64,000 nucleotides of DNA from Sphingorhabdus sp. (lineage in GTDB: Bacteria; Pseudomonadota; Alphaproteobacteria; Sphingomonadales; Sphingomonadaceae): positions 124,001-188,000 of the forward strand of contig JANQNO010000007.1 of the NCBI GenBank assembly GCA_028279555.1. The letters are read 5' to 3'. Each line of letters opens with the position of its first letter. The first letter of the stretch is position 1. Position numbers and translations under genes: made by a program. A model generated the notes under the pieces. It was not told the DNA's origin. It saw only the letters and a program-made list of their open reading frames with translations, and did not search any database. Of this stretch, positions 13,265-26,347 are shown piece after piece.

Positions 13265-14922
13265 AGATCTTGATTCTGGGCGGCTATGGAAGCTTCGGCG
13301 GCAGGCTTGCCGAACTCTTGCTCGACATGGCCGGCCTGGAAATGCTCATCGCTGGACGATCATTCGATAACGCTGAAATGTTCTGCAACGCTCACACGGG
13401 GAAAGCCCTGCTGCGCCCTCTGCGGGTGGATAGGGCAGATATCGGCATGGCCCTGGAGCAAGAAAAGCCGGATTTGCTGGTCGACGCATCGGGGCCATTT
13501 CAATCCTATGGCCACCGGCCATATGCCGCCGCACAAGCATGTATCGCGCAACATGTCGATTATCTGGATCTGGCAGATTCGGCAGACTTTGTAGCTGGAT
13601 TCAAAATGCTGGACCCTGCTGCCAAGGCCTCCGATATCTTCGCTCTCAGCGGTGTGAGCAGTTTCCCCGTGCTCACCGCTGCAGTGCTGAGAGAAGTTAC
13701 GAATGACATGACCGTCAAAAATGTCACCGGCGGTATCGCACCCTCGCCCTATGCCGGCGTTGGACCGAATGTCATGCGCGCAGTGATGAGTTATGCAGGG
13801 TCGCCAGTGCCCCTTGTGCGAAATGGCGAGCCTTCCGTTGGCACGGGCCTCGCCGAAAGCATACGCTATACCATCGCGCCGCCAGGCCACCTGCCGCTCA
13901 GGAATATCCGTTTCTCGCTTGTTGATGTGCCGGATCTGCAGCTGCTGCCGCCCGCATATCCGGGATTGCTCGACATTTGGATGGGTGCAGGGCCTGTCCC
14001 CGAATATCTGCATCGGACCCTGAATTTGCTGGCAAAGACGAGAGCAAAGCTTGGCTTGTCAGCCATGACGCCGCTCGCGCCGTTGTTCTATAGAGTGCTC
14101 AATCGGCTGCGATATGGCGAACATCGCGGCGGGATGTTTATTGAAGCCAAGGGCGAAGTGACCGGTCAAAGCACTGAACGATCATGGCATCTTATCGCCG
14201 AAGGAGATGATGGCCCCTATATCCCGTCGATGGCCTGCGAGATCATTATTCGCAAGCTTATGGCCGGAACGCGTCCCATGCCCGGTGCGAGAGCAGCGAC
14301 AAACGAGATCTCGCTTGGTGACTATGAGAATATTTTTGAGAAGCGGGCGGTTTTCACAGGCTGGCGCGACGAAGACCGGATGGCTCAAAAGTCATTGTAT
14401 GAGCAGCTGCTCGGAAACGCGTATGAAAAGCTGCCGCGAGCCGTTCGGCAACTGCATGGCAGCCGCAAGCGGCGGCGCTGGTCAGGGCGGGCAAAAGTGA
14501 TCAGGGGGCGTAATCCGCTCGGAGTCCTTGTGGCATGGCTGATCGGCTTTCCACCACCCTCGGACGATGTCGATGTCGATGTCTCTTTTACACCCGATAC
14601 CGAAGGGGAATTTTGGGAGCGCAATTTTGGGGGCCGACGCTTTGGCAGCTATCAAATTGCAGGGAAGGGCAAGGATGACAGATTGCTGGTGGAGAGATTT
14701 GGTCCAATATCAGTGGCCTTGGCGCTGGTGGTTCAGCAGGATCGTCTCCTGGTGATACCGCGCAACTGGCGGATCGGCCCTATACCGTTACCCCGTGCAC
14801 TTTTGCCGTTTGGAGAAACATACGAATCGGAACAGGATGGCCGTTTCCATTTCAATGTCTCGATCAGCGCACCGATCATCGGACTTGTTGCCGAATATCG
14901 CGGCTGGCTGTCCCCTGCCTAA
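13261..14922 (+). CDS. Saccharopine dehydrogenase-like oxidoreductase with C-terminal DUF4166 domain
   Basis: A 553-residue protein. The GTG at 13261 begins the Rossmann fold at once (VKILILGGYGSFGGRLAELL, glycine-rich NAD(P) loop). This start fits better than the longer frame, which overlaps the DCC gene. The N-terminal half resembles saccharopine dehydrogenase; about residues 390-550 form a DUF4166 domain ending in a membrane-proximal tail. True lysine metabolism is unlikely; relatives act on lipids or are uncharacterised. The DCC gene immediately upstream overlaps it by four bases, which suggests a joint redox function. Confidence 0.86.
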   Translation: MKILILGGYGSFGGRLAELLLDMAGLEMLIAGRSFDNAEMFCNAHTGKALLRPLRVDRADIGMALEQEKPDLLVDASGPFQSYGHRPYAAAQACIAQHVDYLDLADSADFVAGFKMLDPAAKASDIFALSGVSSFPVLTAAVLREVTNDMTVKNVTGGIAPSPYAGVGPNVMRAVMSYAGSPVPLVRNGEPSVGTGLAESIRYTIAPPGHLPLRNIRFSLVDVPDLQLLPPAYPGLLDIWMGAGPVPEYLHRTLNLLAKTRAKLGLSAMTPLAPLFYRVLNRLRYGEHRGGMFIEAKGEVTGQSTERSWHLIAEGDDGPYIPSMACEIIIRKLMAGTRPMPGARAATNEISLGDYENIFEKRAVFTGWRDEDRMAQKSLYEQLLGNAYEKLPRAVRQLHGSRKRRRWSGRAKVIRGRNPLGVLVAWLIGFPPPSDDVDVDVSFTPDTEGEFWERNFGGRRFGSYQIAGKGKDDRLLVERFGPISVALALVVQQDRLLVIPRNWRIGPIPLPRALLPFGETYESEQDGRFHFNVSISAPIIGLVAEYRGWLSPA

Positions 14923-14933
14923 CATGTCAGTCG

Positions 14934-16091
14934 CTAGAGTGCTTTCTGGTAAATCCGGTAGACCTTGTTGACCTTTCCGCCCACGGCTTCGCCCACCGAG
15001 CGCATGGGCCCGTTGGAGGACAGCACCCAGCCGAATTCGCCGCGCGTCGCGCCATAATTGGCGCAGATATCGCGCCTGATATATTCGATCAGCATCATGG
15101 CAAGCTGGCTCGCCAGCCTGCTGCCCTGATATTTCTGCACCACGCCCATCAGTGGCACCCGGCCTGTCCGGCAAACCGGATTTCTGAGCCACCAGAGCAG
15201 CTTCGCCCAGTTGAAAGGCCAGAGCGATCCGCCATAATCCGCCAGCTTCTCATTCATATCCGGTATCGTCATCATGAAAGCCGCAGGCTCGCCATCGACC
15301 TCGGCAATCTTGATCAGGTCTTCACGGACAATGGGCTTCAACTTCTTGCCAGCATAGGCAATCTCGCTGTCGGTGAAGGGAACAAAGCCCCAATTGTCCG
15401 ACCAGGCATTGTTGAGGATCGACATGATCAGCGCGGCCTCTTCATCGAAACGCTTCTTGTCGACATTGCGGATGCGGATGCGGGATGATTTGTCGCCCAT
15501 GGCGACAAGCCGGTTGACCAGCTCGGGAAATCCATCGGAAATCTCGAGGGCATAGGTCCACAGATCTTCCGCCTTGGCATGCCCGGCAGCTTCCACCCAG
15601 GCCCCATATTCCGCTGCATGATATCCCATCATCACCGTTGGGGGGTGGTCATGCCCCTCGATCAGCAGGCCGGGCTCGTCCCACATGGAAAGGCTGACCG
15701 GGCCGACAATTCTGGTCATGCCCTTGGCGCGCATTGCCTCTTCAGCGGCATCAAACAAAGCGCGCGCAACATTTTCATCTTCCGCCTCGAACATACCCCA
15801 AAAGCCGGTGCCGGGCCCGAAACCCTGCTCTGCCGGCTGCGCAAGCGCAAGATCATCGATATGGGCTGAAATCCGCCCCACAACCCGGCCTGCACGCTCC
15901 GCCAGAAACAGCTCCGCCGAGCCATGTTCGAACCATGGGTTCTTTCCAGGGTCAATGAGGCCATAAACTTCATCCTTGAGCGGCGGTATCCAATTGGGGT
16001 TATCCGCATAGATCCGGTAGGGAAGCTCCACGAAAAGCTTCTTGTTGGCGGCTCCCGACACTGGCCGGATAATGATCTCATCGTCATGCAT
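14934..16091 (-). CDS. GNAT-fold acyltransferase, candidate bacterial ceramide synthase
   Basis: A 385-residue protein of the large GNAT-like family beginning with PYRIYADNPNWIPPL...DPGKNPWFEHG and ELFLAERAGRVVGRISA. A second GNAT half has GVVQKYQGSRLASQL (acyl-CoA binding loop) and GEFGWVLSSNGPMRS. As I recall, bacterial ceramide synthase of Caulobacter (bCerS) is a GNAT-fold protein in a sphingolipid locus, and this gene is about 8 kb from spt-acp-cerR. It is the last gene of the lptF-lptG-flippase operon, 12 bases after the flippase. The broad family also occurs in bacteria without sphingolipids, so the specific role is inference. Confidence 0.85.
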   Translation of the reverse strand: MHDDEIIIRPVSGAANKKLFVELPYRIYADNPNWIPPLKDEVYGLIDPGKNPWFEHGSAELFLAERAGRVVGRISAHIDDLALAQPAEQGFGPGTGFWGMFEAEDENVARALFDAAEEAMRAKGMTRIVGPVSLSMWDEPGLLIEGHDHPPTVMMGYHAAEYGAWVEAAGHAKAEDLWTYALEISDGFPELVNRLVAMGDKSSRIRIRNVDKKRFDEEAALIMSILNNAWSDNWGFVPFTDSEIAYAGKKLKPIVREDLIKIAEVDGEPAAFMMTIPDMNEKLADYGGSLWPFNWAKLLWWLRNPVCRTGRVPLMGVVQKYQGSRLASQLAMMLIEYIRRDICANYGATRGEFGWVLSSNGPMRSVGEAVGGKVNKVYRIYQKAL

Positions 16092-16103
16092 TGCCGCTCA
16101 ATC

Positions 16104-17642
16104 CTATAGTCTCAGCCATTTGGCAAGACCGCCCAATGCCTCCTTGTCTTCGGCAAGCATGCCAAAATGAAGCACCAGCCACAGCAGCGGCCAAAAGAGC
16201 AAAAGCAGGCCAATCGCCCGGACGGGCGCGCCATGGGGAGCCAGCAGAACCCCCGCCAGCCACATGGCAAGGCAGAACAGCAAGGCAGCAGCAGTCGCCC
16301 GCCAAAAGCCTTTCCCAAACGGCGAGAGATCATCGCTGATCTGCAACTCCACTGCCGCTGCCCAGGCGGTAACGACAACGCCGACAGCCACGGCAATGGC
16401 CATGCCGGTAACCCCGAACTCCGGGACCAGCCAGATGGCGAGAATTACCCAAATCACCAAGCCCAGCAGGCTATTGAGCAGAGGCAAGATGCGGTGGCCG
16501 ATCATCTCCACGATAGGCGTCGCCGGCCCGATCACCGCTTCCCCGGCGCGGGCAACCAGCAGCAGAATCAGAATAGGAAGGGCGGCCTCGGACCCCGGTG
16601 CAAAGCCGGAGAGAATGTCACTCGCGACCAGAATCATGAAACCGGCAATCGGCACCGCCAGGAGCAGCGACATATGCGTTGCAAAGCTATAGAGCGGCGC
16701 AACGCCGGTCCTGTCGGCCGCCCCCTGCGCAGATGACAACGGGGCCAATACGTAAAGGAATGACTGGCGCACAATGAGCGGGATCGAGGCGACCTTGCGG
16801 GAGATACCGTAAAGCCCGGCAGCCGTCGCACCGGCAGCGCCCGCCATCATGACGTTGAGCAAAATCGGAGGAAGATCATTAAAGGCCCGACGCGCCAGCG
16901 CCGGAGGAAGCAGGGCCAGTCCGCTGGCCAGCAGATTGCGCCTCAGCGCAGGCCTGGGCGGCGCGGCAAACACCAGCCGCAGATCATAATAGCGGTTCAG
17001 CAGTCGTAGCGCGAGAATGGCTGTCAGGAGCAGTGAGAGCAAATGCCCGAGAAGCAGGCCTTCCAGCCCAAACCCGGCGAGATACAGCAAGGTCACAAAT
17101 CCGAGCCGCGCCACCTGCTCCCAAAAAATGCGCAGCCGAATCTCCGGGCCAAAGGCCCGTTTAGCCCGCGCCGCAGCGGTCGCCGTCTCGACGAAAATCC
17201 ACAGCGGAAGCGTTGGAGCAAAAAGCATGATCGCCCGCGGCAAATTTTCAGCATTTTCGGGATCGGAGGAGATGAATCCGGCGAGCGGCTGAGCAAAGGC
17301 CATGAGCAAAAGCGCAGCCAACACGCCAAGACCAGTGGAAACCAGCAACGCGACGCGCAGCGCATAATGCTGCGCCTCACGCTCTTTTTCGGCTGGAATG
17401 ATCCGCTGAAGCGCCTGCCCCATGGCGAGATCAAGCAGATTCGCGAGAATGTTAACCGCGGCCCAAAGCACAATATACAAGCCGTAGCTGGTGAGGCCGA
17501 ACATCCATGTATATGCGGGCTGCGCGACGATTTCGATCAGTGCACCGAGCCGCGAAAGGCCGGCAAGTCCCGCTCCTTTCGCGACATCTGACCGGCTTAC
17601 CGCAGGGGCCGTGCCAGCGGCATCATCGCCCCACTGGGTCAT
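16104..17642 (-). CDS. Polysaccharide/lipid flippase (Wzx/MATE-like)
   Basis: A 512-residue integral membrane protein with about 12-14 hydrophobic helices. The N-terminus (SDVAKGAGLAGLSRLGALIE) is typical of polysaccharide-biosynthesis flippases of the MOP superfamily. These move lipid-linked sugars or lipids across the inner membrane. ATG 17642 was chosen because it overlaps the lptG stop (ATGA); the longer frame would run 60 bases into lptG. Its place between lptG and an acyltransferase suggests it moves an envelope glycolipid precursor. Confidence 0.87.
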   Translation of the reverse strand: MTQWGDDAAGTAPAVSRSDVAKGAGLAGLSRLGALIEIVAQPAYTWMFGLTSYGLYIVLWAAVNILANLLDLAMGQALQRIIPAEKEREAQHYALRVALLVSTGLGVLAALLLMAFAQPLAGFISSDPENAENLPRAIMLFAPTLPLWIFVETATAAARAKRAFGPEIRLRIFWEQVARLGFVTLLYLAGFGLEGLLLGHLLSLLLTAILALRLLNRYYDLRLVFAAPPRPALRRNLLASGLALLPPALARRAFNDLPPILLNVMMAGAAGATAAGLYGISRKVASIPLIVRQSFLYVLAPLSSAQGAADRTGVAPLYSFATHMSLLLAVPIAGFMILVASDILSGFAPGSEAALPILILLLVARAGEAVIGPATPIVEMIGHRILPLLNSLLGLVIWVILAIWLVPEFGVTGMAIAVAVGVVVTAWAAAVELQISDDLSPFGKGFWRATAAALLFCLAMWLAGVLLAPHGAPVRAIGLLLLFWPLLWLVLHFGMLAEDKEALGGLAKWLRL

Positions 17643-18736
17643 TCCTCGGTTCGCACCAAAACAGCTTCGCCGATGAGCAGGAATAACAGGAAGGGTGCCC
17701 ATGCTGCGACCAGCGGCGGGTAGGCCCCCAGATTGCCCATCGCGAGTGCAAAATTATCGGCAACAAAATAGGCGAAGCCGAGAGCCATACCAATAACCGC
17801 GCGGACAAAAAGCGCCCCTGACCGGGCCAGGCCGAAAGCCGCAACCGCGCCCAGCAGCGGCATCAACAGCGCCGACAGCGGCCCAGAAATCTTGTGCCAC
17901 ATAATGGCTTCGAGATTGCTGGTACGCCGCCCCGAGAGCTTCAGATCGGCAATCGCCTCGCGCAGCTCCAGAAATCCGAGCGCATCGCCATCGACCTTCT
18001 CATACTGGAACCGGTCGGGCGTAATCCCCTTGCCCACGGTGACTTCTTCGAACCGCTCCTCGCCATCGGCGCGGACCGGATCGAAACTGGTAACATTTTC
18101 CAGCCGCCAGACATCACCCTGATAGCTGCCGCTGTCTGCATGGATCACTTGCCTGAGCCCGCCGCGGTTGCGCAAATAGACGCTCACATCCTTCAGCTGG
18201 GTCGCATTCCCTTTGCCGCGCACTTCTTTGGCATGAAAGAGATCCTGTCCTTCGCGCACCCAGATATTGTACTTTACACCGCTTTCGCGCGGGATGGCGG
18301 CATATTCGACATCCTGCCAGCGTTTCAGCTCTGCGGTGGCCGGGGCCACGACGCGATCATTGAAAACAAAGGAAAAAATGGCGACCAGCAGAGCCGTCAT
18401 AAACATCGGCGCGAGTATTTGATGCGCAGAAAGCCCCGATGCTTTCATTGCGACCACCTCGCTATTCTGGCTAAGCGTGGTGAATGTGATGAGCGTCCCG
18501 AGCAGAACCGCGAATGGCATAAAACGCGCGATCAATTGCGGCACGCGAAGCCCGATATAGCGCCACAAATCGCCCTGCCCATTGCCATCCACTTCCAGAA
18601 TTTTTCCGCTTTCGCCGAGCAGATCGAGCGTCATCAAGACAAGCACAAGCATCGCCAGAACAGCGAAACTGCGCGTCAAAAACAGCTTGCCCATGTAAAG
18701 GCCGACCTGTCGCGAAGGGAAGAATTGCAAATGCAT
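17639..18736 (-). CDS. lptG: LptG, permease subunit of the Lpt lipid-export ABC transporter
   Basis: A 365-residue YjgP/YjgQ-family protein. Three N-terminal helices (about residues 20-40, 60-80, 100-125), a large periplasmic beta-jellyroll domain, then three C-terminal helices. Visible motifs include FMPFAVLLGTLITFTTLSQNSEVVAMKASGLS. With LptF and LptB it extracts LPS from the inner membrane. Sphingomonads use glycosphingolipids in place of LPS, so the substrate here may differ. Start overlaps the lptF stop (ATGA), and its own stop overlaps the flippase start. Confidence 0.94.
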   Translation of the reverse strand: MHLQFFPSRQVGLYMGKLFLTRSFAVLAMLVLVLMTLDLLGESGKILEVDGNGQGDLWRYIGLRVPQLIARFMPFAVLLGTLITFTTLSQNSEVVAMKASGLSAHQILAPMFMTALLVAIFSFVFNDRVVAPATAELKRWQDVEYAAIPRESGVKYNIWVREGQDLFHAKEVRGKGNATQLKDVSVYLRNRGGLRQVIHADSGSYQGDVWRLENVTSFDPVRADGEERFEEVTVGKGITPDRFQYEKVDGDALGFLELREAIADLKLSGRRTSNLEAIMWHKISGPLSALLMPLLGAVAAFGLARSGALFVRAVIGMALGFAYFVADNFALAMGNLGAYPPLVAAWAPFLLFLLIGEAVLVRTEE

Positions 18737-19959
18737 CAGGCTGGCTCGGCTTTCATCGGCGGGGAACGCCCGCGCCGAAAACGCAGCAACTTGCGAATAC
18801 CCTTTCCGACTTGTTCGGCAAATTTCTCAAGCGCGCCAATTGGCTGGCCGCCCGGCACATGGGCCAGCACATGATACATCCAAAGGATCAAGGCGGCGAA
18901 CACGAAAAACGGCACCCAAAGGGCAATCAGCGGATCGACGATTCCAAGTCCGCCGATATCCTCGCCATATTCGTTGACCTTGTGATAAGTCACCACCATC
19001 ACAATGGAGAGGAACACCCCAAGCGCCGAGGTCGACCGTTTGGGCGGAACTGCCAGCGCCAGCGCCAAAAGCGGCATCAGCAGCATCATTATGACCTCCA
19101 CCATACGAAAATGGAAATTCGCCTCTGCCTTGTTGCGGATATCGGCGGGCTGCGATGAATCGCCGCTAATGCTCAAAAGCTCGGGAATCGTATATTCGCG
19201 GTCCTTGCCGCCGCGATCCCGGAAGGCTTCGATCTTTGGCAGGGGGATGGGAACATCATGGTTGGTGAAAGTCAAAACGCGCGGATTGCGGTAGTTGGGC
19301 GCATCATGCACCAATGTTCCATTTTGCAGCCGCAATATGATGGTATCGGGATCATCGGTGCGCAGAAATGTCCCGCGTTCCGCAGTAACGGCAATCGATT
19401 GCTCGCTCTGCGATTCGCCATAAACGAACAGCCCCGACAGATTCTTGCCATCATCGCGGCTTTCATCGATGCGGATCGTCAAATTCTTGCCCAGATTGTT
19501 AAATTCACCCACCTTGATCGACGCGCCCAATGCGCCTGAACGCAGGTCGAAACGCAGCTCTTCATAGAGATAGCGCGAATAGGGCTGGACAAAACCGACG
19601 ATCGCAAGATTGATGGCCGCCAGCGCAAAGGCAAACATATAGGGGACGCGAAGCAGGCGCCAATAGCTCTTGCCCACAGCGCGATAGATATCCAGCTCGG
19701 ATGACAGGGCGAGTCGCCGGAAAGCAAGCAAAATGCCCAGTAGCAGCCCGATCGGTATGCCGAGCGACAGATATTCCGGCATCAAATTGGCCAGCATCCG
19801 CCACACTACGCTGACCGGTCCGCCTTCGGCCGCCACAAAGTCGAAAAGCCGCAGCATCTTCTCAAGAAGCAACAACATCGCGGCGATAATGAGCGTGCCC
19901 ATCATCGGTACGAAAATGAGCCGGGCGATATAGCGATCAGTGGCTGTCAGGAATTTCAA
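18736..19959 (-). CDS. lptF: LptF, permease subunit of the Lpt lipid-export ABC transporter
   Basis: A 407-residue YjgP/YjgQ-family protein, first gene of the leftward operon lptF-lptG-flippase-acyltransferase. The N-terminal helices contain IPIGLLLGILLAFRRLALSSELDIYRAVG, the segment conserved in LptF/LptG that contacts LptB. A periplasmic jellyroll domain (about residues 130-260) and three C-terminal helices follow. The C-terminal tail is basic. The 127-base gap to the divergent DUF2141 gene must hold the operon promoter. LptF versus LptG was assigned by gene order and length. Confidence 0.92.
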   Translation of the reverse strand: MKFLTATDRYIARLIFVPMMGTLIIAAMLLLLEKMLRLFDFVAAEGGPVSVVWRMLANLMPEYLSLGIPIGLLLGILLAFRRLALSSELDIYRAVGKSYWRLLRVPYMFAFALAAINLAIVGFVQPYSRYLYEELRFDLRSGALGASIKVGEFNNLGKNLTIRIDESRDDGKNLSGLFVYGESQSEQSIAVTAERGTFLRTDDPDTIILRLQNGTLVHDAPNYRNPRVLTFTNHDVPIPLPKIEAFRDRGGKDREYTIPELLSISGDSSQPADIRNKAEANFHFRMVEVIMMLLMPLLALALAVPPKRSTSALGVFLSIVMVVTYHKVNEYGEDIGGLGIVDPLIALWVPFFVFAALILWMYHVLAHVPGGQPIGALEKFAEQVGKGIRKLLRFRRGRSPPMKAEPA

Positions 19960-20086
19960 ACTGTTGTCGCTCTGTTACCCTATTTTGGCCGCAAATCATT
20001 CCGATAAGCGAGTTTAGGTTCAGGGGCAATATCCGTGGTGCGTTCGCGCTGAATCGCGCCCTCATATATGTCTCAGGAGTAAAGAC

Positions 20087-20560
20087 GTGAAAAATTTCAT
20101 TCTCCCAGCCGCGGCACTCGGTCTGTTATCGATGGGTAGCGCGGTTCAGGCCGGCAAGATCGGCAACAATCTCTCGCGCTGCAGCGCGGGTAAGGGGCCT
20201 GCTGTCCTTATTACTGTCAGGGGTATCAAATCCTCCACCGGCAAGATGCGGGTGCAAAGCTATCCTGCAACAAAAGCCGCCTGGCTCAAGAAAGGCCGCT
20301 GGCTCAACCGTATCGAGAATCGTGCGCGTGCAGGCACCATGACCTTTTGCATGCCGGTACCCAAATCCGGGAATTACGGCATCGCTATCCGGCATGACAA
20401 GAATGGCAATGGCAAGACCGACATCAGAAAAGATGGCGGCGGCATGTCGCGCAATCCCAGCATCAATATTTTTAATCTGGGCAAACCTTCGGTGAACAAG
20501 GTGTCATTCTATGTCGGCAATGGCGTGAAGCGCATCACCATCAATATGCGATATATGTAA
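20087..20560 (+). CDS. DUF2141 periplasmic protein
   Basis: A 157-residue secreted protein. GTG start at 20087 with CAGGAG eight bases upstream; signal peptide MKNFILPAAALGLLSMGSA with cleavage near VQAG. The core shows DUF2141 features: a strand LITVRGIKSSTGKMRVQ and IRHDKNGNGKTD, an EF-hand-like Asp/Asn-rich loop. Role unknown; such proteins are found near envelope-lipid genes. It lies 10 bases before the lipid-kinase gene and is divergent from lptF. Confidence 0.85.
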   Translation: MKNFILPAAALGLLSMGSAVQAGKIGNNLSRCSAGKGPAVLITVRGIKSSTGKMRVQSYPATKAAWLKKGRWLNRIENRARAGTMTFCMPVPKSGNYGIAIRHDKNGNGKTDIRKDGGGMSRNPSINIFNLGKPSVNKVSFYVGNGVKRITINMRYM

Positions 20561-20570
20561 GGCTACTGCT

Positions 20571-21539
20571 TTGGCTCTTGTTGCGCTCCTTTCCAATCCG
20601 CATTCCACTGGCAACAAGTCTTTGTTGCCCAAGGTGCGGTGCTTTTGCGCGCGCAATCCCGACATTTTCCACTATGAGGTGGAAGAGATGCATCAGATCA
20701 GCCGGGCGCTGGAGATGATCGCCCGCGTCAAGCCCAAGGTTCTGGTCATCAATGGCGGCGACGGCACGGTGCAGACCGCGCTGACCGAACTTTATCATGG
20801 CGGGCATTTTGACGGGGCACCGCCGCCGGTTGCCGTATTGCCGAACGGGAAAACAAACCTCATCGCGCTCGATCTGGGCGCGCAGGGCAACCCCCTGGAA
20901 GCATTGTCGGAAATATTGGAGATCGCAAAAGGCGATGTTTCCGGCCATGTGGTTGCACGCGAATTGATTGCACTGTCAGACGGCAGCGAGAATGCCAAAC
21001 CGGTTCTAGGCATGTTTCTGGGCGGCGCAGGGCTGGCCGACACGATGCTTTACTGCCGCCACAAAATCTATCCGCTGGGCCTTCCCAACGGGCTGAGCCA
21101 TGTGTTGGCGGTTTTTGCCACGCTGTTTTCCGTGCTTGTCGGTTTCCGCGCAAAATTCCTTCCGCAGCGCGCCGATCCGGTGCGGATTTCGCATCTGCGC
21201 GATGGCGAGCTCAAAGGAAGCTTTTCGGTGCTCGTAGTGACGACGCTCGAAAAACTGCTGCTTGGCGCGCGACCTGGCCGGCAAAAGGAGGGGCATTTGA
21301 AATTTCTTGCCGTCGACCAGAGCATCGGTGCCATGTTCAAGGTCGTGGCTGCTTCGATTGCCGGAAGGCTTGGCAAGCAGGCGATGCGCGGTGTCCATCT
21401 CGCGCAGGGCGATATCATCCGCATCGACGGCGCACACAGCAATGTTATTCTGGATGGGGAGTTGTTTGAGGCCAATGACAAAAAGCCAATCATTCTCAAA
21501 TCTACACCGCCCATACCCTTCCTGAAAATCGCCGCCTGA
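20571..21539 (+). CDS. Lipid kinase with DAG-kinase catalytic domain (possible ceramide kinase)
   Basis: A 322-residue cytoplasmic lipid kinase. The ATP-binding glycine loop NGGDGTVQTAL is at residues 61-71, and the C-terminal beta-sandwich ends in ILDGELFEANDK. The TTG start at 20571 is supported by TAAGG eight bases upstream, and no other start exists in frame. Such enzymes phosphorylate diacylglycerol, sphingosine or ceramide. Caulobacter has a DAG-kinase-type ceramide kinase (CpgB) in its sphingolipid locus. The lptFG/acyltransferase operon on one side and spt-acp-cerR on the other make a ceramide substrate plausible, but the sequence does not prove it. Confidence 0.87.
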   Translation: MALVALLSNPHSTGNKSLLPKVRCFCARNPDIFHYEVEEMHQISRALEMIARVKPKVLVINGGDGTVQTALTELYHGGHFDGAPPPVAVLPNGKTNLIALDLGAQGNPLEALSEILEIAKGDVSGHVVARELIALSDGSENAKPVLGMFLGGAGLADTMLYCRHKIYPLGLPNGLSHVLAVFATLFSVLVGFRAKFLPQRADPVRISHLRDGELKGSFSVLVVTTLEKLLLGARPGRQKEGHLKFLAVDQSIGAMFKVVAASIAGRLGKQAMRGVHLAQGDIIRIDGAHSNVILDGELFEANDKKPIILKSTPPIPFLKIAA

Positions 21540-21593
21540 CAAGGCGTAAACGGACAATCGACAAAAGCATTGGCGCGATATAGAGGCGGCCAT

Positions 21594-22523
21594 ATGGCGT
21601 CGTTACAACAACTTGTTGCCCGCGAACTGGCCGAACCGGCAAGGCAGGAAGTGCAGGCATTTGCCCGGCATATAGCGGCGCAATATGAGGGCGCGGCCCG
21701 CGCTGTGCTTTTTTACGGTTCCTGTCTACGCTCGGAGCGGCTCGAAGGCGAGATGCTCGATTTTTATCTGATTGTGTCGGACTATGCGCCAGCTTACGAC
21801 AAAAAATGGCTGGCCAAATGGAATCGGCGCCTGCCGCCCAATGTATTCCCCTGCCAGCATGAAGGGTTGATGGCGAAGGTCGCTGTGCTCAGCGAGAATG
21901 ACTTTCATGCGCTCAATCGTCCAGGCGCATCGGCAGTGTCAGTCTGGGCCCGCTTTTCTCAGCCTTCACGCCTTGTCTGGGTTGCCGATGATGATGAGGC
22001 GCGGCGCAAGGCGGTGCTGGCGATTGCCGGTGCAGCGCCGACATTGCTGAATGCAGCTTTGGCGCATAATGACCGGGAGGCTGTTCCGCTGGCCGATCTG
22101 TGGCAGTCGGGCTTCGCGCTCACCTATGGCGCGGAGCTGCGCGCCGAGCGTAAGGACCGCCCGGCCTCTGTGATAGACTTTGATCCGGAGCGCTATGAGA
22201 CATTCGGGCGCGCCGCTCTGCATCATACGGCGATCGCCAATGAAATACGCGGCGATCGGGTCTATCTCGGTGAGGATCCCGAAGGCCGCATCGAGCAGGA
22301 GCGCGCACGCTGGCCCGCGCTGCGCCGGCGCGGCAAATTTCTGACGCTCGCGCGCCTCGCCAAGGCCAGCTTCACCTATTCAGGCGGGATCGACTATATC
22401 GCCTGGAAGGTGAGCCGTCACTCGGGCGAGGAACTCAAGGTCAGGGCATGGCAGCGGCGCTGGCCGATCCTTGGGGCAGCGGTGATGCTCCCAAAATTGT
22501 GGATGAAGGGCGCTGTACGCTGA
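21594..22523 (+). CDS. Tam41-like nucleotidyltransferase (putative CDP-lipid synthase)
   Basis: A 309-residue protein I assign by eye to the Tam41/Mmp37 family of CDP-diacylglycerol synthases. The signature YGS (residues 41-43) and EMLDFYLIV (53-61) aligns with the Tam41 YGS...MLDF motif. Later segments KVAVLSENDF, RFSQPSRLVW and FTYSGGIDYIAWK resemble the conserved downstream strands. The ATG at 21594 has GAGG upstream. The gene directly follows a lipid kinase, so together they could turn a lipid into its phosphate and then the CDP-activated form. If the lipid is ceramide this would be unusual. A plain nucleotidyltransferase without lipid activity remains possible. Confidence 0.72.
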   Translation: MASLQQLVARELAEPARQEVQAFARHIAAQYEGAARAVLFYGSCLRSERLEGEMLDFYLIVSDYAPAYDKKWLAKWNRRLPPNVFPCQHEGLMAKVAVLSENDFHALNRPGASAVSVWARFSQPSRLVWVADDDEARRKAVLAIAGAAPTLLNAALAHNDREAVPLADLWQSGFALTYGAELRAERKDRPASVIDFDPERYETFGRAALHHTAIANEIRGDRVYLGEDPEGRIEQERARWPALRRRGKFLTLARLAKASFTYSGGIDYIAWKVSRHSGEELKVRAWQRRWPILGAAVMLPKLWMKGAVR

Positions 22524-22563
22524 TTTATGTTATCCTTCCCGCTGAATCGAGGGAGGTGATGAT

Positions 22564-22955
22564 ATGCCGAGGCAGCTAAAAAATATCCAATCCATCTGGG
22601 GCTGGGCGGGGCCGCCATAGAGCAGCCGGAAATAACCGGCGGGATGGAATGGTATGAAGGCTATGGCCAGCGCCATGGTGAGGATGGCCGCGAGGGGCGG
22701 CTGGTTTCGATGTATAGCTTCACCGAAAGCTGGGATGCCTGGGAGATGCATCCCAAGGGGCATGAAATCGTTCTGTGCATCGAGGGTGAAATCACATTGG
22801 TCCAGGAAGTGGGCGGCGGGGAAAGGCGCGTGACGCTGGCACCCGGGGAATATGCGATCAACGATCCCGGCGTCTGGCACACAGCGGATGTCGACGGGGA
22901 GGTGACGGCGTTGTTCATCACCGCAGGCGAAGGCACACAGCACCGGCCTCGCTAG
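22564..22955 (+). CDS. Cupin-domain protein with a -1 frameshift at an A6 run
   Basis: The cupin part is clear from ATG 22644 (103 residues, [36 protein letters not shown]), but that start has no ribosome-binding site and the frame is protein-like further upstream. GGGAGG, seven bases before ATG 22564, is the strong site; from there the product starts MPRQL and enters AAAAAA (22578-22583). A -1 shift on A AAA AAT joins it to [11 protein letters not shown] and on into the cupin. Without the shift the frame from 22564 ends at 22620. It is therefore a sequencing indel, a broken gene, or programmed frameshifting. The product would be a small single-domain cupin, possibly metal-binding. Confidence 0.7.
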
Positions 22956-23809
22956 TTTTTGAATACCACCGTCCGATTGCCGTTGAGCAATATTCGGTCT
23001 TCCAAATGCGCTCTCACCGCTTCTGCCAGCACGCGGGACTCAATGTCGCGGCCCTTTGCGACCAGCTCTTCGGGCGTGTCAGAATGGCTGATATGTTCGA
23101 CATCCTGCGCAATGATTGGCCCTTCATCCAGGTCAGCGGTCACATAATGGGCCGATGCGCCGATCATTTTAACACCGCGAGCATGGGCCTGATGATACGG
23201 CTTTGCTCCTTTGAAACCAGGCAGAAAGCTGTGATGAATATTGATGCAGCGACCGGAGAGGTAACCGGCAAAATCATCTGACAGTATCTGCATATAGCGT
23301 GCCAGTATCACAAGCTCAGCCCCCGTTTGCTCGATCAGTGCCTTCAGCCGGTCTTCCTGTTCAGGCTTGGTCTCCGGCGTTATGGGGTAATGATACCAAG
23401 GCGTATCTCCTACCAGCGAGGGTTTTGCATCATCGCGCGGATGGTTTGACGCGACAGCAACCACATCCATATTCAGCTCGCCCACGCGCTGACGGTAGAG
23501 CAAGTCCTCCAGACAATGGTCGAATTTCGACACCAGTATCAGCACTTTTTTGCTCATAGATGCAGGTCGCAAACACCATTCCATTTCATAAGCGGCTGCC
23601 ACTCTGCTGAAGGCTATCTTTAGCTGCGATTCGCTGGGCGCGGAGGCCAATGCCTCATATTTGACGCGCATGAAAAATCGTCCGGAATCGATGTCATTAT
23701 ATTGCTGCGAATTGAGGATATTGCACCCATTATCGGCGAAGAAACCGGAAACCGCCGCAACCAGGCCAGGCTGATCGGGGCAGGATAGCGTAAGAACATA
23801 TTCAGACAT
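22952..23809 (-). CDS. purU: Formyltetrahydrofolate deformylase
   Basis: A 285-residue enzyme that hydrolyses 10-formyl-THF to formate and THF, supplying formate for purine synthesis and balancing one-carbon units. An N-terminal ACT domain ([19 protein letters not shown]) is followed by a formyltransferase-type domain with [19 protein letters not shown] and [13 protein letters not shown]. These match PurU rather than PurN because of the ACT domain. The stop overlaps the cupin end by four bases in convergent orientation. Confidence 0.95.
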
Positions 23810-23824
23810 AGTCGTTCTTGCACC

Positions 23825-25024
23825 CTAAATAATACCCACGGCTTTTCCAGCTGCCTCAAACATCCCCAGTATCTCGCCGACCTGCTCGCTTGAATGTTCG
23901 GCGCAGAGCGAGCATCTGAGCAGCGTCATGCCAGCTGGCGTGGCGGGCGGACGGGCGAGATTGACATAGAGCCCTTCTTTGAGCAGCGCCTCCCACATCA
24001 TCGCCCCGCGCTCCAGATCGGGCATGATCACCGCGATGATCGCGCTCTCAGGTTCGTCTGTGCCCAGCTGGAACCCCAAATCGCGCAGGCCCCTGTGCAG
24101 AGCCTTACTGTTCTCCCACAAATGCGCGCGCTTGTTCGATCCATGCATCAGCTTGCGGATCGATGTCGCGGCAGTCGCGACCACCGAGGGCGGCAGGCTG
24201 GCGGTAAAGACATAGGGACGGCAGACCAGCCGCATCACCTCGAACTTCGGATGGTTCGACACGCAGAAACCGCCGACCGTGCCGACGCTTTTTGAGAATG
24301 TTCCGACGATGAAATCGCAATCATCTATCACCCCCTGCGCTTCGCACACACCGCGGCCATTCTCGCCGATAAAGCCCATCGAATGCGCTTCGTCGACCAG
24401 CACCATCGCCCCTGCTTCCTTGGAGATACGCACCATCTCCTTGAGCGGCGCGACATCGCCGAGCATCGAATAGACGCCTTCGAGCACGACCAGCTTGCCG
24501 GCATCTTCAGGCAGGCGCTTCAGCCTTTTTTCCAGCGCTTCGACATCATTGTGGCGGAAGGGCACGATTTCGGCATTGCCCATCGCGCAGCCGTCATAGA
24601 TCGAGGCATGGCTGTCGATATCGAGGATGACATAGTCGCCCTTGCCCGCAATGGTGCTGATCACACCCAGATTGGCCTGATAGCCAGTGGAAAAGACCAT
24701 CGCATGGTCCATGGCGTAAAATTCCTTCAGCGCCTCCTCGCATTCCTTGTGCCCCTGATAGGTGCCGTTGAGAACGCGGCTGCCGGTCGTGCCGCTGCCG
24801 AAATTGTCAAGCGCATCCTTGCCTGCCGCGATGACATCATCGTCGAAGGTCATGCCCATATAGTTATAGGTGCCGAGCAGGATCGTGTCGCGCCCGTTGC
24901 AGATGGCGCGGGTCGGAGAGATTACCTCCTCCATCACCAGATTATAGGGATCGGTCACACCGGTCGAAAGCAACGTCTCGCGCGTCTGGATGATGTCATC
25001 AAACTTGGAGAAAAGGTCTGTCAT
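23825..25024 (-). CDS. spt: Serine palmitoyltransferase
   Basis: A 399-residue PLP enzyme of the alpha-oxoamine synthase family that joins serine and palmitoyl-thioester to give 3-ketosphinganine, the first step of sphingolipid synthesis. The PLP lysine is Lys245 in GTFSKSVGTVGGF; His139 (DSHASIYDG) stacks on PLP and Asp211 (VDEAHSMG) binds the ring nitrogen. The sequence is recognisably close to the soluble Sphingomonas paucimobilis SPT, with a shorter N-terminus. It lies next to a dedicated acyl carrier protein and a ceramide-reductase-like gene on the same strand, as in Caulobacter. This is the main reason for a Sphingomonadales assignment. Confidence 0.96.
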   Translation of the reverse strand: MTDLFSKFDDIIQTRETLLSTGVTDPYNLVMEEVISPTRAICNGRDTILLGTYNYMGMTFDDDVIAAGKDALDNFGSGTTGSRVLNGTYQGHKECEEALKEFYAMDHAMVFSTGYQANLGVISTIAGKGDYVILDIDSHASIYDGCAMGNAEIVPFRHNDVEALEKRLKRLPEDAGKLVVLEGVYSMLGDVAPLKEMVRISKEAGAMVLVDEAHSMGFIGENGRGVCEAQGVIDDCDFIVGTFSKSVGTVGGFCVSNHPKFEVMRLVCRPYVFTASLPPSVVATAATSIRKLMHGSNKRAHLWENSKALHRGLRDLGFQLGTDEPESAIIAVIMPDLERGAMMWEALLKEGLYVNLARPPATPAGMTLLRCSLCAEHSSEQVGEILGMFEAAGKAVGII

Positions 25025-25037
25025 AAGGTCAATCCAA

Positions 25038-25072
25038 AACTGTCATTCCCGCGAAAGCAGGAGTGACCACGA
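25038..25072. repeat. Short REP-like element between spt and acp
   Basis: GTCATTCCCGCGAAAGC followed by AGGAGTGACC, a partial copy of the palindromic family seen at 42.7, 49.8, 51.1 and 55.7 kb. Confidence 0.5.
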
Positions 25073-25075
25073 GTG

Positions 25076-25321
25076 TCAGGAGTCCACCAGCTTCGTTACC
25101 GCATCAACAAGCTGACCGACATTTTCGATCTCGGCCTGCATATTCATGGTGATGACAATATCGAACTCGTCTTCAACCTCGGCCACAAAATCCATTACGG
25201 TCAGGCTATCCCATTCGAGATCGCCTGCAAATGTCGTCGTCTCCGTCAGATCGACACCCTTTTTGTTGAATGGTTCGATCAGGCCCTTGAGCTTGTCAAA
25301 CATGGCGCTGCGGTCAGTCAT
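25076..25321 (-). CDS. Acyl carrier protein dedicated to sphingolipid synthesis
   Basis: An 81-residue ACP with the phosphopantetheine attachment site EWDSLTVMDF (Ser39). It is distinct from housekeeping AcpP (shorter helix II, E-W-DSL) and resembles the ACP that supplies acyl chains to Spt in Caulobacter. It sits between spt and the reductase gene, all leftward, so the three are probably one operon. The short REP-like element in the acp-spt gap does not look like a terminator. Confidence 0.9.
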   Translation of the reverse strand: MTDRSAMFDKLKGLIEPFNKKGVDLTETTTFAGDLEWDSLTVMDFVAEVEDEFDIVITMNMQAEIENVGQLVDAVTKLVDS

Positions 25322-25429
25322 AGTCGCATCCTGTCATTTCTGGTTGGCCTCTTTGGCCAGTTGTGGCGGCACTTGGCAAGCGAATATGGCGGCAAAAGGG
25401 CGCAATTGGAGCGCGCGCCTTCCGGCGGC

Positions 25430-26347
25430 CTAAAGCCATCCCTGCGCCTTGTACCAACGCGCGGTATCCTTCAGCCCCTGGCGCGTCTTGATTTCGGGTT
25501 GCCAAAGCGATGCCGGCGGGAGCATTTGCCGGTCGACAACCCAGTCTGGATGGGAAAGATAACGCGCGCGGTCCGGCGTTAATTTTGCCTTGCCGCGCCG
25601 CGCACCCCGGTCCCCATAGGCCGCAAGCAACAGGAGCGCTTTGGGCGCGGATATTGCCGTCACCCGCCGCCCCATTGCCCAGCCAACAGCGCGGCCGAAA
25701 CCGGTGTGGCTCCACCCGCGCGGCTCACCATCATCCGCTTCGAATATCTGGCCCGTCACTGCCTCGCTGGAGGGCAGGAGGGCGACCAGAAGCCGGGCAA
25801 GATCATCGACATGGATAAAGGATGCGCGCCCCTTTGGTGGCAACAGAACAAAGCCGCGTTTCGCCAGCCGGAAAAGATCCAGCATTTCGGTATCGCCCGG
25901 GCCAAAAACACCCGGCGGGCGGATAATCGTCCAGTCCAGAAGCGACGTTGCGACATGTTTCTCGGCGCGAAATTTGCTCATGCCATAATCGGAGAGTTTG
26001 GGCTGCCTGGCAGCGAGCGAGGAAACATGGACGAAGCGCTTCACGCCGGTTTCGCGCGCTGCTGCCAGCATATTTTCCGTGCCCGCCACATTGCCTTCTT
26101 CAAAACCGGCCTTGTCGGGCGCATTCACAACACCGGCAATATGCAGCACCGCGTCGGCACCATCGCACAGATTCTCCAGTGATTCGACTTTGTCGAGCGC
26201 TCCCGGGATCCAGGTAACGCCCGGCTTTTCGGCCTGCTCGCGCCGCGTCAAGGCGCGGATATGCCAGCCCTGCGCCAGCAGGCATTCCATCGTTGCCTGC
26301 CCGACAAATCCGGTTGCACCGGTCATGGCGACGGTTTTCCCTACCAT
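25430..26347 (-). CDS. cerR: NAD(P)-dependent epimerase/dehydratase family protein, likely ceramide reductase
   Basis: A 305-residue extended short-chain dehydrogenase. The nucleotide loop is VAMTGATGFVGQATMECLLAQ, and the catalytic motif is YGMSKFRAEK (Y-x3-K). Length and fold match CerR, which reduces 3-keto-ceramide in bacterial sphingolipid synthesis. The assignment rests mainly on its position upstream of acp and spt, the order known from Caulobacter. Its stop lies 109 bases before the acp start. Confidence 0.85.
   Translation of the reverse strand: MVGKTVAMTGATGFVGQATMECLLAQGWHIRALTRREQAEKPGVTWIPGALDKVESLENLCDGADAVLHIAGVVNAPDKAGFEEGNVAGTENMLAAARETGVKRFVHVSSLAARQPKLSDYGMSKFRAEKHVATSLLDWTIIRPPGVFGPGDTEMLDLFRLAKRGFVLLPPKGRASFIHVDDLARLLVALLPSSEAVTGQIFEADDGEPRGWSHTGFGRAVGWAMGRRVTAISAPKALLLLAAYGDRGARRGKAKLTPDRARYLSHPDWVVDRQMLPPASLWQPEIKTRQGLKDTARWYKAQGWL

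Follow-up and report, generated by a model that had tools for sequence, protein, structure and literature searches.

A sphingolipid-type LptF-LptG pair encoded beside a probable ceramide synthase gene in Sphingorhabdus, and its likely place in a sphingolipid export route

Background

The closest described counterpart of the locus considered here comes from Caulobacter, where CC_1156 and CC_1155--second versions of the permease subunits LptF and LptG--have been suggested, together with CC_1168 (a second version of LptC) and CC_1166 (a proposed flippase), to carry sphingolipids; mutants of CC_1156 (LptF2) show a cofitness of 0.60 with mutants of CC_1159 (PMC11324152). How sphingolipids get to the bacterial outer membrane is described as unknown (PMC11324152, PMC11087976), and PMC11324152 was the only article on the subject found in the open-licence literature when earlier work on two LptF/LptG types was sought. 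A related run of four genes, encoding LptF, LptG, a Wzx-type flippase and an acyltransferase with tandem GNAT domains, lies head-to-tail on the minus strand at positions 14934-19959 of a 64,000-nucleotide stretch of Sphingorhabdus sp. DNA (contig JANQNO010000007.1, positions 124,001 to 188,000; the whole stretch is termed here the window), as is seen from the list of its open reading frames (ORFs). In all probability this operon supplies the inner-membrane engine that drives sphingolipid export.

Judged by locus numbers, the Caulobacter neighbourhood resembles that of the window: cerS (CC_1154), LptG2 (CC_1155) and LptF2 (CC_1156) are matched, as is a spt-acpR-cerR group; the ceramide kinase CC_1160 and CC_1161 are likewise near the pair, and the same function is proposed, the two systems being likened by gene order only. 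The differences are that Caulobacter makes lipopolysaccharide (LPS) too, its LptF2 and LptG2 being second versions, whereas the sphingolipid-type pair of the window is the only pair; and that the proposed flippase CC_1166 is encoded on the cluster's far side, whereas that of the window lies between lptG and the acyltransferase gene. The canonical LPS exporter, LptB2FG of E. coli, contains members of the same permease family, and the window pair passes the NCBIfam equivalog cut-offs both for LptG (TIGR04408, 316.8 bits against 240) and for LptF (TIGR04407, 252.7 bits against 230). Identity to the E. coli proteins is 19% for LptF and 26% for LptG; the window pair lies outside the alphaproteobacterial LPS-type clade described below, occurs in a genome without LpxC, and does not have basic residues at both of LptG positions 40 and 41 (E. 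coli numbering throughout).

A sequence-only reading of the window had proposed that its Lpt pair is dedicated to ceramide-based lipids. This idea is supported by the clade split, the pair counts and the lack of LpxC reported below, though it is not new, having been proposed in print for Caulobacter LptF2/LptG2 (PMC11324152). New here are the division into two clades across the class, the number of pairs per genome and the single LptD; the division turns a guess about one species into a class-wide, testable assignment and points to specific residues. Genomes, loci and families of the samples are denoted, where needed, by the prefixes G, L and f.

Results and discussion

LPS status and LptF/LptG content of the order

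No LpxC match was found in the organism's own genome (2.75 megabases (Mb), 99.91% complete) or in any of 147 genomes of its order, Sphingomonadales, in a search that was positive for the control genomes of E. coli and Caulobacter; lpxA, lpxB and lpxD were not searched. The organism appears to be without LPS, and the absence of LpxC argues against LPS as the substrate of LptF/LptG in this order and, as far as one gene of the pathway can tell, against an organism with lpxA-lpxD and a normal LPS. Exactly two LptF/LptG matches occur in its genome, namely the pair of the 14934-19959 run. Matches were found in 144 of the 147 order genomes: exactly two in 127, more than two in 16 and one in 1, the other 3 having none. 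(The 16, such as G071 and G084, have three to five matches, which may correspond to split genes or to a third type.) The acyltransferase was found in 146 of the 147.

Two clades of LptF/LptG pairs

LptF and LptG were aligned separately and joined per genome, yielding 63 rows with E. coli, from which a tree was inferred by a quick search with Shimodaira-Hasegawa-like approximate likelihood ratio (SH-aLRT) support and no bootstrap. All 23 rows from LPS makers--that is, 11 LPS-only genomes, 10 second pairs of two-pair genomes, and the pairs of G173 and G209--form an LPS-type clade (SH-aLRT 100), and all 39 remaining rows, the window included, form a sphingolipid-type clade (SH-aLRT 99), which comprises 15 rows from the order (among them the window), 13 from other LpxC-less genomes and 11 from two-pair genomes. 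Ten of the latter 11 were recognised as the pair near ceramide genes from such genes, or cluster genes, on their own locus or contig, and that of G335 from its likeness to G250. The window pair thus groups with pairs next to ceramide genes and apart from those of LPS makers. The order rows represent 15 of the 33 loci (window included) in which both genes were found; the pairs of G173 and G168 were each joined from two places; and the tree leaves out the second pair of G167 (in pieces on small contigs), the divergent pair of G163 (L218) and G160 (partial).

The same split appears in trees of LptF alone (99 and 96) and of LptG alone (99 and 97), and it holds (100) in a 57-row tree without E. coli and five other, mostly long-branched, rows. 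A constrained tree in which the order's pairs join the LPS type is worse by 72.65 log units and is rejected (approximately unbiased test, p-AU 0.001). Even within one family, f30, the pair of G168, which has LpxC, is of the LPS type and that of G277, which lacks it, of the sphingolipid type.

Few positions other than LptG 40 and 41 look like determinants of specificity. In structures of enterobacterial exporters, the 4'-phosphate of lipid A is met by LptG K40 and the inner core by K41 (PMC6744409). Of the 23 LPS-type rows, 17 have basic residues at both positions, versus none of the 39 sphingolipid-type rows; at least one of the two positions is basic in 23/23 of the former, and at least one is acidic in 26/39 of the latter.

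LptF/LptG pairs per lipid class

A draw of 192 genomes from the class Alphaproteobacteria contained 33 with an acyltransferase match, of which 3 were weak (G198, G256 and G268, left out) and 3 came from the order itself. The class sample of 40 consists of the 27 strong acyltransferase genomes outside the order and of 13 acyltransferase-free genomes picked by the authors from the listed part of 159 such genomes. Two LptF/LptG pairs are present in 11 of the 13 genomes having both the acyltransferase and LpxC; one pair is present in 13 of the 14 having the acyltransferase without LpxC, and in 11 of the 12 having LpxC without the acyltransferase; and the single genome with neither has no pair. In other words, 36 of the 40 genomes fit one LptF/LptG pair per lipid class (LPS and sphingolipid).

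The acyltransferase tracks serine palmitoyltransferase (Spt): a clear match (above 430 bits) occurs in 26 of the 27 acyltransferase-bearing genomes outside the order, the exception being G173 (263 bits), and in none of the 13 acyltransferase-free genomes (best 246 bits); the dividing line was chosen once the scores had shown a gap from 440 to 263 bits. Within the order, 39 of 40 genomes exceed 560 bits (G014 does not). In this partial check, the condition that would have counted against the sequence-only reading, the same gene order in genomes devoid of spt, did not materialise.

The 14 acyltransferase-bearing class genomes without an LpxC match (G174, G176, G192, G200, G206, G210, G223, G257, G277, G283, G284, G299, G305 and G307) come from 10 families outside the organism's own order. 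This suggests that loss of LPS with retention of sphingolipids is wider than the textbook case.

Several points weigh against a pair dedicated to sphingolipids. LPS capacity is judged from LpxC alone, and the support for export is genomic, transport itself being deduced from it. G173 and G209 carry the acyltransferase and LpxC and yet only an LPS-type pair; G163 has four LptF/LptG matches (two of them weak) and no acyltransferase; G200 has the acyltransferase and spt and gives no match for LptF/LptG, LptD, LptC or LpxC; and 16 of the 147 LpxC-less order genomes exceed two LptF/LptG matches. LptC, sought by Pfam in 49 genomes, was matched in 42 and not in the organism's own, in a search too insensitive to judge either its presence or the existence of two copies. 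Long branches and an uneven letter composition of several rows drew warnings from the tree program. Finally, K40E/K41E left the growth of E. coli unaffected (PMC5548808), which makes these two residues weak evidence, and in both clades most rows have an acidic residue at the important K34.

Regarding G200 (locus L227), its genome is a single contig of 5.4 Mb that is rated 100% complete and contains the acyltransferase, spt, acpR and cerR-like genes.

Linkage of the exporter and acyltransferase genes

Among the 129 order genomes for which both places are listed, 124 have the acyltransferase gene at most 5 kilobases (kb) downstream of the best-listed LptF/LptG match on the same strand (79 of 82 in the organism's own family, Sphingomonadaceae, and 45 of 47 in other families). 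This count omits 16 acyltransferase-bearing genomes without a listed LptF/LptG place, G058 (no listed acyltransferase place) and G081 (no acyltransferase). The linkage is not due to chance, and of the order genomes that allow a judgement nearly all retain it.

A wider block, in which spt, lptF, lptG and the acyltransferase gene occur in one stretch, was found in 19 of 40 order loci examined (each at most about 19 kb). Among loci from other families of the order, 15 of 22 show it in compact form, as does the window, and in the organism's own family it is complete in 4 of 18; most loci with the full block also carry the lipid kinase gene and an unannotated gene of the type found at 21570-22523, and the block recurs in relatives of the class outside the order. 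For members of Sphingomonadales, S. wittichii and Z. mobilis among them, the genes are described as scattered (PMC11324152).

The flippase

The sequence-only reading had also cast the flippase as a dedicated partner of the export pair, a part of it that the data do not secure: the flippase is not a constant partner. Strong relatives (E<1e-40) occur in 12 of 86 Sphingomonadaceae and in 38 of 61 other order genomes, with only weak matches in 21 more; in Sphingomonadaceae the gene lies beside lptG in 4 genomes (G000, G057, G089 and G100) and elsewhere in 8, and four other sampled genomes of the organism's own genus gave no match. The gene does, however, sit between lptG and the acyltransferase gene in the sampled order families f2 and f4-f8 (mostly lost in f8) and, outside the order, in f38. 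In a tree of flippases (which leaves out L072, from G026) the four lptG-adjacent copies of Sphingomonadaceae group together inside the order, a pattern compatible with descent plus loss. A recent acquisition of the flippase here was considered and rejected on account of this grouping with other lptG-adjacent flippases. The tree and gene positions indicate that the flippase is an old part of the block that has been lost or moved in most sampled sphingomonads, which implies that the export pair can do without it.

There is a serious possibility, if one that we favour somewhat less than its opposite, that the flippase is unrelated to sphingolipids and is present by descent, turning over an undecaprenyl-linked oligosaccharide for a surface polysaccharide. 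Its Wzx-type Pfam family and its patchy distribution speak for this, whereas its recurring place between lptG and the acyltransferase gene, f38 included, and its phylogeny speak for a tie to the block.

The outer-membrane gate and the specificity of the pair

Of the 49 genomes searched, 47 gave a single LptD, the organism's own and those with two pairs included (in G335 as two pieces at contig ends), and G200 and G151 gave none; in several LPS makers its gene adjoins the LPS-type pair. Because LptD is single even in two-pair genomes, the outer-membrane gate is probably common to both engines. That both feed this one gate is the simplest reading; a second, unrelated gate may exist instead.

A generic gate also fits a generalist pair, such that the Lpt machinery of LPS-less bacteria exports any bulky outer-membrane glycolipid and the nearness to ceramide genes is a matter of inherited order, with no specificity for the substrate. 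Some of the machine is indeed generic, given a single LptD not split by lipid class, and the two clades score alike against the NCBIfam LPS-export models (two tested sphingolipid-type LptF fall just under 230 bits). The generalist explanation is nonetheless unlikely, considering that every one of the 62 alphaproteobacterial rows falls into the clade of its lipid class and that 11 of the 13 genomes with both lipids maintain two pairs.

The acyltransferase and acyl-chain oxygenases

The AlphaFold model of the acyltransferase (mean predicted local distance difference test score, pLDDT, 92.4) shows a tandem GNAT architecture, and the five best solved chains retrieved by Foldseek are tandem GNAT proteins (13-15% identity, best E 3.9e-15); a sequence search of the PDB gave no meaningful relative. 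The bacterial ceramide synthase, bCerS, is presumably a GNAT-type protein as well, and the window acyltransferase resembles it (CerS, CC_1154) in fold, in tracking spt and in its neighbours. The acyltransferase is thus probably a ceramide synthase, as judged from its predicted fold, distribution and position.

In outgroup families a fatty-acid hydroxylase gene (PF04116) lies between the flippase and acyltransferase genes, and it adjoins the latter in 19/27 class loci holding an acyltransferase gene (a weak partial match in L211 being uncounted). That the acyltransferase instead acylates some other substrate, such as a sugar or a protein amine, is very improbable: GNAT folds are versatile and the PDB search was uninformative, whereas the co-occurrence with spt, the adjoining hydroxylase and a position equivalent to that of CC_1154 (cerS) beside LptG2 in Caulobacter (PMC11324152) all favour a ceramide synthase.

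Six of seven Sphingomonadaceae gaps examined between lptG and the acyltransferase gene contain an opposite-strand ORF of 364-432 residues, and the two of these ORFs given to Pfam belong to a fatty-acid desaturase family (PF00487). The desaturase type and the PF04116 hydroxylase type alternate beside the acyltransferase gene in the loci compared (L055, L057, L062, L063, L067 and L071 versus L037, L040, L041, L051, L258 and the class loci), not every ORF having been given to Pfam; the window has no oxygenase gene directly beside its acyltransferase gene. Because CC_0202 of Caulobacter, a DesA-family protein, reportedly hydroxylates the acyl chain in amide linkage (PMC11324152), both desaturase- and hydroxylase-type genes would fit a role in ceramide tailoring. 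A small extra GNAT-like gene also occurs directly 3' of lptG in four Sphingomonadaceae loci (L062, L063, L068 and L069; Pfam match for the L063 copy).

A proposed export route

The substrate, its direction, the order of steps and the use of LptB and LptD are read here from gene content, clade membership, the absence of LpxC, the finding that most sampled genomes have one pair for each lipid class, and the single LptD; the neighbouring genes are equated with those of Caulobacter by gene order only. In the proposed route, (i) Spt, with AcpR, would make the long-chain base; (ii) the tandem-GNAT acyltransferase would N-acylate this base to an (oxidised) ceramide at the cytoplasmic face; (iii) headgroup enzymes, including a CpgB-like kinase and a Tam41-fold protein, would modify the ceramide; (iv) a flippase--here perhaps the Wzx-type protein, elsewhere something else--would turn the ceramide lipid to the periplasmic leaflet; (v) the sphingolipid-type LptF-LptG, with LptB, would draw the lipid out of the inner membrane to the Lpt bridge; and (vi) the cell's single LptD would insert it into the outer membrane in place of LPS.

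A more far-reaching proposal, which could go either way, is that the Lpt system is modular: one LptF-LptG engine per lipid class would feed one shared LptD, lineages losing LPS would keep the sphingolipid engine only, and the Tam41-fold protein would make CDP-ceramide from ceramide-1-phosphate, corresponding to the CpgC step. If this is true, LptD, seen as the LPS translocon, serves entire orders as a translocon of sphingolipids. A single LptD in two-engine genomes raises the question of competition between LPS and sphingolipids for one gate. The automatic label "LPS export permease" may mislead in bacteria without LPS.

Headgroup genes

That the cargo is specifically a glycolipid, as the sequence-only reading had it, is not shown by the locus: Pfam recognised no glycosyltransferase among the 12 genes submitted to it from 13276-26347, one of which has no match. 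The lipid kinase and Tam41-fold genes suggest that the locus provides a phospho-headgroup. Counting against a purely phospho reading, a ceramide glucuronosyltransferase of Zymomonas is described as having relatives throughout Sphingomonadales (PMC13028669), and sphingomonads are reported to have glycosphingolipids instead of LPS (PMC11087976). It is best to speak of the cargo as a ceramide-based lipid without naming its headgroup, and its glycosylation may be encoded elsewhere.

In Caulobacter the ceramide kinase CpgB is CC_1160 (PMC10331486), and CpgC acts on ceramide-1-phosphate by a mechanism described as yet to be identified (PMC12275187). The order of the lipid kinase and 21570-22523 genes beside spt matches that of CpgB and CpgC, and the 21570-22523 protein is on this basis of gene order alone termed CpgC-like. 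(A PDB sequence search with the lipid kinase gave nothing useful.) The predicted model of the 21570-22523 protein has a mean pLDDT of 90.6, and its five best Foldseek chains are of the cytidine diphosphate (CDP)-diacylglycerol synthase Tam41 (three entries; E 4e-8 to 5e-7), with moderate template modelling (TM) scores of 0.48-0.52 by query. Y49-G50-S51, R54 and D64 are invariant in 21 sequences, so that the protein combines the fold with G-S...D, which we take to be the nucleotidyltransferase signature. It differs from Tam41 in having only 12-15% identity, and its weaker matches are aminoglycoside nucleotidyltransferases. Because the gene adjoins spt and the lipid kinase gene, the likely substrate is ceramide-1-phosphate rather than phosphatidic acid; from the modelled fold it is proposed that the protein makes CDP-ceramide, a candidate explanation for CpgC.

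Locus layout

The features of the locus are collected in Table 1. All four ORFs of the near-continuous run described by the sequence-only reading are present, as are an ATGA overlap at 17642-17639 between lptG and the flippase gene and a 12-base gap from the flippase stop to the acyltransferase start; the lptF/lptG junction, which had also been described as ATGA, is instead TGATG (18738-18734), a 1-base overlap. In view of the ATGA overlap, the flippase probably starts at 17642 (512 residues) and not at the mechanical ORF start, 17702. From these overlaps the four genes would be transcribed jointly; a promoter scan found no site ahead of lptF on its strand, and a terminator scan added nothing.

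Synthesis and export genes had been expected to be transcribed together, which is so only in part: the exporter run contains the acyltransferase gene, and the other synthesis genes lie outside it, with spt, acpR and cerR forming a separate run. This arrangement agrees with the statement that cerS is always in an operon other than that of the de novo ceramide synthesis genes (PMC11324152).

Table 1. Genes of the sphingolipid locus, in window coordinates
Gene or product	Position	Strand	Remarks
lptF, sphingolipid-type clade	18736..19959	-	TTG start; stop shares 1 base with lptG
lptG, sphingolipid-type clade	17639..18736	-	
Wzx-type flippase	16104..17642	-	PF01943 (Polysacc_synt); start set by ATGA overlap with lptG
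Tandem-GNAT acyltransferase, probable bacterial ceramide synthase (cerS/bCerS)	14934..16091	-	Pfam Acetyltransf_1
DUF2141 protein	20087..20560	+	Divergent from lptF, often kept so in relatives
DAGK_cat lipid kinase, probable ceramide kinase	20571..21539	+	GGDG motif; cpgB position
Tam41-fold nucleotidyltransferase (predicted)	21570..22523	+	No Pfam/NCBIfam match; cpgC position
purU-like protein	22952..23809	-	Formyl_trans_N and ACT domains; probably unrelated neighbour
spt, serine palmitoyltransferase	23825..25024	-	NF047603, 812.9 bits (cut-off 670)
acpR-like acyl carrier protein	25076..25321	-	PP-binding; 81 residues
NAD-dependent epimerase/SDR	25430..26347	-	cerR position

Convergent with the acyltransferase gene, at 13276-14922 on the plus strand, lies a gene whose product, according to Pfam, fuses a saccharopine dehydrogenase-like domain to DUF4166.

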